A DNA stretch of 41,751 bases. Source: an uncultured Actinomycetes bacterium (lineage in GTDB: Bacteria; Actinomycetota; Actinomycetes; Nanopelagicales; Nanopelagicaceae). The stretch is from assembly GCA_903898555.1 (NCBI GenBank), contig CAIUFY010000011.1, positions 1-41,751 of the forward strand, given 5' to 3'. Positions 36,837-41,751 of this stretch are shown here, in pieces (within the stretch, counting starts at the first letter, position 1; the number at the start of each line of letters is the position of its first letter). Position numbers and translations under genes: made by a program. The notes beneath the pieces were generated by a model. It was not told the DNA's origin, did not search any database, and worked only from the letters and a program-made list of their open reading frames with translations.

Positions 36837-38138
36837 TTAAGCGCTCTTCTCCTCGGAACCATCGGCGCTCTTTGGCTTGCTTGCTCGCTTAGGGCCGGCT
36901 CCGCGGGAGACGTACTGAGGTTCTTCTTCTTTTCGTACCACTCCAGGAGTGATGACAACGCGCTCCACATCCTTGCGGGATGGAACTTCGTACATGACCG
37001 AAAGAAGCGTTTCTTCCATAATTGCTCGAAGACCACGAGCTCCGGTTCCGCGCTTGATCGCAAGATCAGCCACAACGCCAAGAGCTTCTGGAGTTACTTC
37101 AAGTTCAACACCATCTAATTCGAATAGCTTCTCATATTGTTTTACGAGTGCATTTTTTGGCTCAGTAAGAATTTCCATGAGGGCCGGGCGATCAAGATTT
37201 TCAACGCTCGTAAGAATTGGTAAACGTCCGATGAATTCAGGAATCATTCCAAACTTCAACAAATCTTCAGGCATGACCTCGCCGAAAATATCTGTCTTTT
37301 GAACATCATCAATTGATTGAAGTTTCGCGTTGAATCCAACTCCGGCTTTGCCCTTGCGGCTCTCAATAATTTTCTCAAGTCCAGAGAATGCACCGCCAAC
37401 GATGAAAAGAATATTTGTTGTGTCAATTTGCAAGAATTCTTGATGAGGGTGCTTTCGGCCACCTTGTGGTGGAACAGATGCAGTTGTTCCTTCGAGAATC
37501 TTCAATAGTGCTTGCTGTACGCCTTCACCCGATACGTCACGAGTAATGGATGGATTCTCTGCCTTGCGTGCGACCTTATCGATTTCATCGATATAGATGA
37601 TTCCTGTTTCGGCCTTCTTAACATCAAAATCTGCAGCTTGAATAAGTTTGAGGAGAATGTTTTCTACATCCTCGCCCACATAACCTGCTTCGGTTAGTGC
37701 TGTTGCATCCGCAATCGCAAATGGAACGTTCAACATTCTGGCCAGTGTCTGAGCAAGAAGTGTCTTGCCGCAACCTGTAGGTCCAAGAATCAAAATGTTT
37801 GATTTCGCAAGCTCGACAGAATCCTCGCGCTTTGTATCGCCAGATTGAACACGCTTGTAGTGGTTATAGACAGCAACTGCGAGTGAACGCTTTGCTCGGT
37901 CCTGCCCAATTACAAATTGATCTAGGAAGTCTGAAATCTCTTGTGGCTTTGGAAGTTCAGTTAAACCAAGGGTGCTTGTCTCTGAAAGCTCTTCGATAAT
38001 GATTTCATTACAAAGTTCAATACATTCATCACAGATGTATACGCCGGGACCAGCGATAAGTTTCTTGACTTGCTTTTGTGTCTTTCCGCAGAAAGAACAC
38101 TTCAAGAGATCGCCTGATTCTCCGATGCGTGTGTTCAT
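36837..38138 (-). CDS. clpX: ClpX ATPase subunit
   Basis: 433 aa; zinc finger [52 protein letters not shown]. Confidence 0.98.
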
Positions 38139-38215: not shown

Positions 38216-38839
38216 TTACTTAACAGCTTTACGAGAGGCTAGAACCTGGTCGATGAGGCCGTACTCGACAGCGTCTGCGGCAGTAAGAATCTTGTCGCGC
38301 TCGATGTCTTTAGCAATTTCTTCAGCTGACTTTGTTGAATGCTTAACAAGCATCTCTTCCAAAAGTGCGCGCATGCGCATGATTTCGCGAGCTTGGATTT
38401 CGATATCCGATCCTTGGCCACCGCCCTCTGATGAAGGTTGGTGAATCAAGATACGGGCATGCTCAAGAGCAAAGCGCTTTCCTTTAGCTCCTCCTGCAAG
38501 CAAAATCGCAGCAGCTGATGCAGCTTGACCGAGACAAATTGTCATCACGTCAGGACGAACGAATTGCATCGTGTCATAAATTGCCGTTAGCGCTGTGAAA
38601 GATCCGCCAGGTGAGTTGATGTACATCATGATGTCGCGGTCTGGATCCATCGACTCGAGAGTCAATAGCTGCGCCATTACATCGTTTGCAACTGTGTCAT
38701 CAATTGGTTGACCCAAGAAAATAATGCGCTCTTCGAAAAGCTTTGTATAAGGATCAAGACGTTTGAAACCATAAGCCGTCTTCTCCTCGATTGTTGGGAG
38801 AACGTAACGAGCCGAGATGTCGTTTACTTTGTTATTCAT
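38216..38839 (-). CDS. clpP2: ClpP protease subunit (second paralog)
   Basis: 207 aa; [53 protein letters not shown]. Confidence 0.96.
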
Positions 38840-39447
38840 GCTGCGCCACCGCTTCCTGTTACTTGTGATGCTGACTTAACAACATGGTCAACAAGACCAT
38901 AAGCCTTTGCTTCTTCTGCATCGAACCAGCGGTCGCGATCAGAGTCAGCTGTAATTGTTTCTACGCTTTGACCTGAGTGCTTGGCAATTAGTTCTGCCAT
39001 GCGACGCTTTGTGAATGCCATTTGTTCAGCTTGAATACGAATCTCAGTAGCCGTGCCGCCAATTCCTCCGAGAGGTTGGTGCATCAATATGCGCGCGTTA
39101 GGAAGTGCGTAACGCTTTCCAGCTGCGCCGGCGGTGAGCAAGAACTGACCCATTGATGCAGCAAGTCCCATCGTCACTGTCGCAACATCATTCTTGATGT
39201 ATTGCATGGTGTCGTAAATAGCCATACCCGCAGATACAGATCCGCCAGGTGAGTTGATGTATAGGAAAATATCTTTATCTGGATCTTCAGCTGCAAGGAG
39301 CAGCATCTGAGCAGAAATTGCATTTGCCATGTTGTCTTCAACTTGACCGGTCATGAAAATGATGCGCTCTTTCAGAAGTCGCTGGTAAACCTGGTCATCC
39401 AAGCCGCCCATATTTGAACCCGCTGAACGCGAGGTGATTTCTTCCAC
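38836..39447 (-). CDS. clpP1: ClpP protease subunit (first paralog)
   Basis: 203 aa; [61 protein letters not shown]. Confidence 0.96.
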
Positions 39448-39582: not shown

Positions 39583-40875
39583 TTATTCAGAGTCGGCGTC
39601 AAGAACAACAGGTTGTGGACGAAGAGCTTCTAGATCCACAGCCTTTCCTGACTTAGTGACTACCTTCACGCGACTCAGAACACCAGCAAGCGCCTTAGCG
39701 CGAGCTACTTCTGAAATCATCGTGTTTACCTGACCAGCATCAGTTACTTCCTTGATGAATTGATCTGGAGACATTCCGTAACGCTGTGAAGCGCGGAAAA
39801 GGTATTCAGTTAATTCAGCTTCGTTAACTGAAACTTGCTCAGCATCAACGATGGTGTCAAAAATAATTTCTTGAGTAAATGACTTTGTAGTTGACTCAAT
39901 TACTTCAGCGCGGTGAACTGCATCATCTTGACGGCCTTCGCCTTCAAGGTGGCTGTTAACTTCGCTATCAATTAAGTTTTGTGGAACAGGGACCTTAATC
40001 TCTGTCATCAACTTGTCGACCAGAAGATCGCGAGCAGATGATCCTTGCTCCATCTCCTTGATGCGATTCAAGCGAGTAGAAATATCAGCCTTTAGTTCTG
40101 CAATGGTTTCAAACTCAGATGCCATCTTTGCAAAAGAATCATCAGCTTCTGGAAGATCGCGACGCTTTACAGACTTCACGGTTACATCGATATCGCCAGT
40201 TTGTCCTTCTGCCATTCCAACAAGGCCAGCAGTAAATCGCTTGCTCTCGCCTTCCTTTAATCCTTGAAGTGCATCATCGAGTCCATCAACCATGCGGTTT
40301 GAACCGACTTCATAAGAAACATCATTAACAGTTCCGCCTTCAATTTCTTCGCCATCAACTTTTGCACTCAAATCAATTGAAACAAAATCGCCAGTCTCAA
40401 CAAGTTTTTCAACAGAGGTCAGAGTTCCAAAGCGAGCGCGGAGTGCTGTGAGTTGTTCTTCAATTTCCGCATCCGTTACTTCTACATCATCAACCGTAAG
40501 AGTGATTTGTGAAAAATCAGGAAGTTCAATTTCAGGACGGATATCAACTTCAACTTCTAAAGAAAGTGAAACCTTGTCTTTGAGTTCTTTGATATCAACT
40601 TCAGGGCGACCGATTGGAGAAATCTTTGCTTCGCGAGCTGCTTGTGTATAAAAAGTTGGGATAGCGGCATTGATTGCTTCATCCAATACAACTGCGCGAC
40701 CAACGCGTTGATCAATCATTGCTTGAGGAACTTTGCCTTTACGGAATCCAGGAATGTTTACGCGCGAACTTACAGTTGTGTATGCGTCTGCGAGAAAGGG
40801 CGCCAGTTCGTCGAATGTAACTTCAATAGAAATCTTTACGCGGGTTTCATTGAGTTTTTCTACGGCGCTCTTCAC
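39583..40875 (-). CDS. tig: Trigger factor (GTG start)
   Basis: 430 aa; MKSAVEKLNETRVKISIEVTFDEL; NIPGFRKGKVP; PPIase domain; upstream of clpP1P2X. Confidence 0.95.
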   Translation of the reverse strand: MKSAVEKLNETRVKISIEVTFDELAPFLADAYTTVSSRVNIPGFRKGKVPQAMIDQRVGRAVVLDEAINAAIPTFYTQAAREAKISPIGRPEVDIKELKDKVSLSLEVEVDIRPEIELPDFSQITLTVDDVEVTDAEIEEQLTALRARFGTLTSVEKLVETGDFVSIDLSAKVDGEEIEGGTVNDVSYEVGSNRMVDGLDDALQGLKEGESKRFTAGLVGMAEGQTGDIDVTVKSVKRRDLPEADDSFAKMASEFETIAELKADISTRLNRIKEMEQGSSARDLLVDKLMTEIKVPVPQNLIDSEVNSHLEGEGRQDDAVHRAEVIESTTKSFTQEIIFDTIVDAEQVSVNEAELTEYLFRASQRYGMSPDQFIKEVTDAGQVNTMISEVARAKALAGVLSRVKVVTKSGKAVDLEALRPQPVVLDADSE

Positions 40876-40924: not shown

Positions 40925-41000
40925 TGGTCGGGGCGGCGAGATTCGAACTCGCGGTCTCCTGCTCCCAAAGCAGGCGCGCTAGCCACTACGCTACGCCCCG
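40925..41000 (-). tRNA. tRNA-Pro (anticodon UGG), CCA encoded
   Basis: Cloverleaf CGGGGCG...CCTGC-TTTGGGA-GCAGG...GCGAG-TTCGAAT-CTCGC-CGCCCCG-A-CCA. Confidence 0.95.
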
Positions 41001-41123: not shown

Positions 41124-41197
41124 GCGGGTGTAGTTCAATGGTAGAACTCCAGCCTTCCAAGCTGGTTGTGCCGGTTCGATCCCGGTCACCCGCTCCA
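41124..41197 (+). tRNA. tRNA-Gly (anticodon UCC), CCA encoded
   Basis: Cloverleaf GCGGGTG...CCAGC-CTTCCAA-GCTGG...CCGG-TTCGATC-CCGG...CACCCGC-T-CCA. Confidence 0.95.
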
Positions 41198-41231: not shown

Positions 41232-41751
41232 TTACATCGTTAGTGACGAACCAACTTGTTCAGCTAAAAAACCTCCTGACGACGTAAAAGTATTGACCGT
41301 GGTTGAAGGTGCAACAGAAATAGTCGCTTGCAACCTGAAGTCACTTGGGACTGAAGTGCCGTCCACGAGCACTTTGGCAAGAATGTTGTTTTCAATCACA
41401 GAGGTACCACTTCGGACAGACGCCCCACTTGTGACTAAGTAGGTGAATGAAATTGCAGGCGAGAATCCGGGTGATGTAAGTCGAACTAAATTAATAGCAC
41501 CTTGGGTTCCTGTCACAACGAATGTCCCATGAATCAACACATCAATCACATAAATCTTTCCAGCTAAGAAATTTCCGAATGAAGCTGAAGTTAATTCAGT
41601 ATTTGGACTCGAATTCAGATCTCCAAAACTTATTGATCCTAAGGACGCGGAAGAAATTCCCGCGGGTCCGGTTGCACCTTGCAGACCTTGCGAACCCTGC
41701 GATCCGGTTGCACCTTGTTGGCCGGTTGCACCTTGTGCACCTGTTAATCCA
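41232..41751 (-). CDS. Collagen-like Gly-X-Y repeat protein with beta-rich C-terminal domain (N-terminal part beyond window)
   Basis: Frame is open to the window edge. Translated minus-strand end: GLTGAQGATGQQGATGSQGSQGLQGATGPAGISSASLGSISFGDLNSSPNTELTSASFGNFLAGKIYVIDVLIHG... The ORF track shows only the last 105 aa because it starts at an internal GTG. Confidence 0.85.
   Translation of the reverse strand, partial: GLTGAQGATGQQGATGSQGSQGLQGATGPAGISSASLGSISFGDLNSSPNTELTSASFGNFLAGKIYVIDVLIHGTFVVTGTQGAINLVRLTSPGFSPAISFTYLVTSGASVRSGTSVIENNILAKVLVDGTSVPSDFRLQATISVAPSTTVNTFTSSGGFLAEQVGSSLTM

Follow-up and report, generated by a model that had tools for sequence, protein, structure and literature searches.

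A collagen-like fibre gene with two deeply separated head classes at a conserved locus of freshwater acI bacteria

The window, that is the whole stretch of 41,751 nt analysed here, ends inside a collagen-like gene. What does the complete gene encode, and why does its C-terminal end come in two forms among the relatives? On the minus strand, positions 41232-41750 formed a single open frame of 172 codons that ran off the right edge. A mechanical ORF list began this frame at an internal GTG (41549). A sequence-only reading of the window had extended it to the edge instead, and this extension was confirmed. The series of triplets given in that reading was also exact: 11 uninterrupted Gly-X-Y triplets (GLT GAQ GAT GQQ GAT GSQ GSQ GLQ GAT GPA GIS) made up the 3ʹ end of a collagen stalk (41652..41750, minus strand), followed by a C-terminal head of 139 residues (41235..41651, minus strand) and a stop codon (41232-41234). 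Pfam Collagen matched this fragment with E=6.2e-5, under the curated cut-off. Since the window is the entire contig C11 of a 1.47-Mb source genome in 170 contigs, the gene was cut by an assembly break and not by decay.

The 5ʹ half of the gene is very probably a 253-codon frame at the end of contig C43 (L027). This frame has a start codon and encodes a hydrophobic leader ending in AQGA, then a domain, SGKGAPSASLGLLGDFYIDTSSMNFYGPKTSTKWPTPISLKGP, and then 38 further triplets up to the contig end, and it exceeded the Pfam cut-off for PF01391 (Collagen). We took C43 as the other half because C11 carries the clpX..tig side of the locus and C43 the pepN..small-protein side. The two contigs had no usable overlap (the longest common word was 18 bases), therefore the join rests on synteny. 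The sequence-only reading had considered that the frame might close just outside the window, or that the triplet run might end there as a degraded fragment. Neither was found, as the edge is a contig end and, by synteny, the run continues on C43. Elsewhere in the same genome, a 25% match on C64 and a 97-aa frame on C24 looked like noise.

The cut gene stands at the end of a conserved series of neighbours. Between the fibre gene and tig, the window contains tRNA-Gly (tcc; 41124..41197, plus strand) and tRNA-Pro (tgg; 40925..41000, minus strand). They are followed on the minus strand by tig, coding trigger factor (39583..40875), clpP (38836..39447), a second clpP (38216..38839), and clpX (36837..38138). 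Dozens of genomes of freshwater acI bacteria (Nanopelagicales) kept the order pepN-trmB-rpiB-small protein / fibre gene / tig-clpP-clpP-clpX, and in a relative assembled as a single contig (G032) it read clpX-clpP-clpP-tig / fibre gene / small secreted protein / rpiB / trmB / pepN. About 20 genomes of the genus had the same locus, which was also found in other genera of the family. When named genomes were scanned, 80 loci were obtained, nearly all from freshwater acI / Nanopelagicales, among them those of the complete genomes IMCC25003 and IMCC26103. This is consistent with the streamlined plankton lineage that had been proposed from the window. Flanking genes were present at 76 of these 80 loci; L173, from a different phylum, lacked them, and three loci gave no frame in the flank analysis. 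When genomes of the genus without a fibre match were checked, the tig-side contig ended at the locus in nearly all of them, suggesting that most apparent absences are assembly gaps. G036 was the only checked genome that continued past tig without a fibre gene.

The small secreted protein, which is divergently transcribed and has a weak DUF2680 match, always adjoined the fibre gene (L027 2536-3159, minus strand, and relatives), and it was duplicated in some genomes (L078, L080, L083). In G034, the fibre gene and tig were separated by an insertion of about 4 kb with a Fic-like protein, so labelled by the look of its sequence, and other small genes (L033 5562-9529).

The full-length relatives had a common layout: a leader, a short conserved GDFYID/YGPK domain, 24-64 triplets (median 41 in type A and 38 in type B, as defined below), and a head of about 130-145 aa. 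The number of triplets varied across relatives, a comparison that the sequence-only reading had suggested. Pfam Collagen scored 62-65 bits on full-length relatives (E ~1e-17) against a cut-off of 27.2, and together with the C43 part this placed the gene among bacterial collagen-like proteins, as had been claimed. A hydrophobic leader segment was present in 73 of 76 proteins by a crude test, so the search for a signal peptide proposed earlier ended in a predicted leader, and the fibre protein is predicted from its sequence to be secreted. The parallel search for an anchor gave none: there was no LPXTG-like motif at the C-terminus, and a cysteine behind the leader was found only rarely. Other collagen-like proteins suggest, by analogy, that the fibre is trimeric and exposed on the outside of the cell.

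No Pfam family was found for head A or head B, in agreement with the earlier impression of a domain without assignment. AlphaFold2 monomer models of both heads were all-beta (mean pLDDT 85.8 for head A and 92.2 for head B), and the beta-sandwich fold, previously given as probable, is well supported by these models. Fold matches were weak. Head A matched viral and phage collagen-like proteins (E 5e-4, TM 0.54-0.60), and head B matched TNF-like proteins among others (E 0.025-0.06). The best PDB matches, which served as a test for a C1q/TNF-like jelly roll, had E of 0.008 or worse and TM of 0.45 or lower, so that to call the modelled heads C1q/TNF-like would be a guess. The dN/dS of heads was mostly 0.06-0.3, with a few values near 0.5, and was above the values of the N-terminal domain. 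The heads are under purifying selection, though less than the N-domain.

Two other collagen-like proteins were seen in the relatives. One, of 1209 aa, carried about six GDFYID/YGPK copies and was unlike the fibre gene (L089 2880-6509; G022 contig C2). The other, an unrelated second collagen-like protein of 465 aa with 77 triplets, lay outside the conserved locus (L077 4181-5578; G017 contig C45), and had a different head and no GDFYID domain.

Every classifiable gene had a head of one of two lineages, A, which is that of the window, or B, as assigned by profile scores on complete heads. In a tree of 59 heads, 25 A and 34 B heads formed two clades, each with 100/100 support. Matches across the types were weak (E ~1e-6 to 1e-10), suggesting that A and B are probably distant homologues. 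Very divergent subtypes were present inside A (L150; heads of G003, G016, and G028), and the division into two classes may therefore be oversimplified.

On the flank tree of pepN+trmB+rpiB from 59 genomes, head type needed 20 changes. This was no fewer than in shuffled data (mean 19.1), indicating that head type is unlinked to phylogeny. When close relatives differed in type, their N-terminal domains were still 77-97% identical, against only 9-30% for their heads. For example, L106 (B) and L115 (A) were 95% identical in the N-domain and 29% in the head; the corresponding values were 97% and 23% for L105 and L108, and 90% and 9% for L139 and L163. When pairs with flank identity of at least 90% were compared, the median head identity was 0.68-0.69 for same-type pairs versus 0.16 for different-type pairs, while N-domain identity was equal for both, at 0.78-0.88. 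Head type showed no coupling to the adjacent small secreted protein either (19 changes, shuffled mean 18.7).

Within each type, the heads followed the flanks. For 17 of 25 A heads and 23 of 34 B heads, the closest head belonged to the genome whose flanks were also closest, where about 1 such case was expected, with at most 8 in 5000 shuffles; in the other cases the closest head and the closest flanks belonged to different genomes. This nearest-neighbour test was used within types in place of a rank-based Mantel test, which was weak within type B heads (r=0.12, 73/2000 shuffles) since identity saturates between distant relatives. The N-domain tracked the flanks in a Mantel test (r=0.31, 0/2000 shuffles). 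The tracking within types indicates that both classes persisted through species divergence, or that exchange takes place mainly among close kin. By the trees and the nearest-neighbour test together, the allele classes are shared among several species and predate the divergence of these species.

The difference between the types had sharp limits. In six A/B pairs, nucleotide similarity broke off around the last triplet (from 12 nt before it to 13 nt after it) and resumed around the last codon (from 31 nt before it to 30 nt after it), and outside these limits the six pairs kept 76-98% identity over kilobases. The segment that is replaced measures roughly 380-450 bp, from the end of the stalk to the stop codon. 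In close same-type pairs, the alignment ran straight through the head. The right-hand exchange boundary in the window would accordingly be placed at the 3ʹ end of the gene (41232..41262, minus strand), by analogy with these pairs and with the MAG pairs of relatives rather than from its own genome.

Five MAGs, which are population composites with possible binning errors, carried both head types on one stalk: G020, G026, G004, G028, and G094. Exact identity extended over 124 bp at both sides of the head in G020. The stalk was 92% identical in G026, G004, and G028, with an exact 3ʹ side of 99 bp in G026 and 81 bp in G028, and the values for G094 were 98% and 87%. Such exact overlaps would represent two alternative paths of the assembly graph, and a head in two forms offers a reason why many acI assemblies break at the fibre locus. 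Both types were found less cleanly in G019 and G092, the latter looking like two co-binned relatives, and G001 had one head type in two versions with different stalk lengths.

In principle, each MAG in which a single stalk carries both heads could also be one genome with two cassettes, one expressed and the other silent or inverted, of which assemblies would show one. We regard such phase variation as very unlikely, because the complete genomes IMCC25003, IMCC26103, and G032 have one head each, with no second head or silent cassette found in them. In addition, nearly all of 50 further genomes had the head in one place (two genomes had two), and in contiguous assemblies tig came close behind the gene without a second cassette. 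Two deep head clades would also be left by a pair of ancient paralogues that were lost differentially. This is hardly credible to us, since the difference is confined to the head while the N-domain, the stalk, and both flanks follow species and not type, no contiguous genome carries both genes, and about 20 independent losses would be required. Finally, free exchange of heads might extend to distant lineages, much as phage tail tips are shuffled, without any long-kept classes. Sharp cassette boundaries and frequent type changes fit this idea, but the deep clades number only two, and within each clade the heads track the flanks, a signal that free exchange would erase. We consider it improbable; exchange among close kin is possible, and compatible with the explanation that follows.

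What we propose as the probable explanation is a secreted collagen-like fibre with two ancient head allele classes at a single-copy core locus, swapped by recombination and kept by balancing selection. The head class would switch by replacement of the 380-450 bp between stalk end and stop codon, presumably by homologous recombination through the near-identical flanks, and both classes would have outlasted speciation across the acI family. The pattern points to balancing, negative frequency-dependent selection as the keeper; neutral persistence of both classes over a family seems implausible. The fibre tip would be displayed on the surface, and the selecting agent may be something that recognises the head, with phages as the likeliest candidate. 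The sequence-only reading had guessed at an interaction determinant, and the dimorphism of the head counts for that idea as indirect evidence. Its anatomy of the protein stood; it did not include the missing half of the gene, the core locus with its conserved neighbours, or the existence of two head alleles.

The microdiversity of acI bacteria is usually blamed on phages (PMC10202952). Selection by phages would fit the phage pressure assumed for Nanopelagicales and the variable host-recognition island, with tail fibre and collagen-like genes, of their phages (PMC10202952). It would also fit what is known from Pasteuria, where the C-terminus of a collagen-like protein has a part in genotype-specific attachment (PMC10987987). 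The dimorphism could instead be kept by ecological specialisation on two particle or glycan targets, by protist grazing, or by kin recognition. Collagen-like proteins are often adhesins (PMC10987987), and a beta-sandwich head could bind glycans, to judge from weak fold matches. The data would also agree with particle adhesion, grazing, or kin recognition, and nothing specific speaks against them; we keep these agents as a tentative alternative to phages.

That the fibre gene itself is a domesticated or resident phage gene seems highly improbable. The GDFYID/YGPK module with a collagen stalk is common in phage fibres, being present in 454 viral stretches and in tail proteins of isolated phages, and phage collagen-like proteins are among the top fold matches of head A (TM ~0.54-0.60). 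The acI gene, however, is a single-copy gene with a predicted leader peptide, fixed at a core locus among housekeeping genes across the group. Searches of viral sequences found no phage relatives of head A or head B, and all contiguous loci had housekeeping neighbours, with no adjacent phage structural genes and no prophage context. An ancient phage origin of the GDFYID/YGPK module is possible. As a separate observation, the viral loci L174-L253 showed this module to be widespread in phage collagen-like fibres, as a building block common to host and phage.

Among known systems, Scl1/Scl2 of Streptococcus and Lcl of Legionella resemble the acI fibre in being secreted and in having a Gly-X-Y stalk, a separate non-collagen domain, and a varying repeat number. 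Unlike them, the acI fibre lacks LPXTG, carries its head at the C-terminus, and has two deep head classes; on the Scl/Lcl NCBIfam families it scored 51-78 bits, below the cut-offs of 325-500. For Pcl7 of Pasteuria, we know of no family-wide two-class alleles. Pcl7 shares a C-terminal head with the acI fibre, but is a parasite spore protein of another phylum; its collagen-like C-terminal head mediates host-genotype-specific attachment under coevolution (PMC10987987). Phage collagen-like tail fibres have the same GDFYID/YGPK module and stalk, and a predicted fold similar to head A, whereas the acI gene is chromosomal, leader-bearing, and conserved in hosts, with heads not found in phages.

Alternative modules of Porphyromonas surface proteins spread by homologous recombination, negative frequency-dependent selection has been proposed for them, and one exchanged gene is common to P. 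gulae as well (PMC5266723). That exchange involves two species, in contrast to two classes family-wide in acI with within-class heads following lineages. Eukaryotic trans-species polymorphisms, such as MHC, Daphnia resistance (PMC11193740), and fungal incompatibility (PMC11138114), are similar in that alleles predate species and the footprint around the selected segment is narrow. The acI bacteria differ in being genome-streamlined bacteria, in which mixing must come by gene transfer. We see an even chance that this locus is a bacterial counterpart of the eukaryotic systems, namely a two-class surface recognition locus, maintained by negative frequency-dependent selection over many rounds of speciation in the most abundant bacteria of fresh waters, with the fibre head as a receptor for phages or as a contact label.

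Taken one by one, collagen-like surface proteins, fibre heads, and allelic exchange have been described before. A limited search of the open-access literature found no paper on the fibre gene in acI and no bacterial surface protein with a family-wide system of two allele classes, and the open-access papers searched gave no acI phage receptor on the host side. The acI bacteria dominate many lakes, and their single-copy, either/or fibre tip, recurring throughout the family, is a specific, testable candidate host receptor. If selection is confirmed, the locus would be an example, unusual in bacteria, of balancing selection that has acted for a long time on two deep allele classes.

Some records at the locus deserve mention for their labels. 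Lake MAG records titled Bifidobacterium breve or Streptomycetaceae carried the acI locus (L115, L119, L128, L136, L143, L164), and these titles look wrong. G029 (L078) and G031 (L080), counted as different species, had nearly identical fibre genes with heads 99% alike, which suggests recent exchange or cross-binning.
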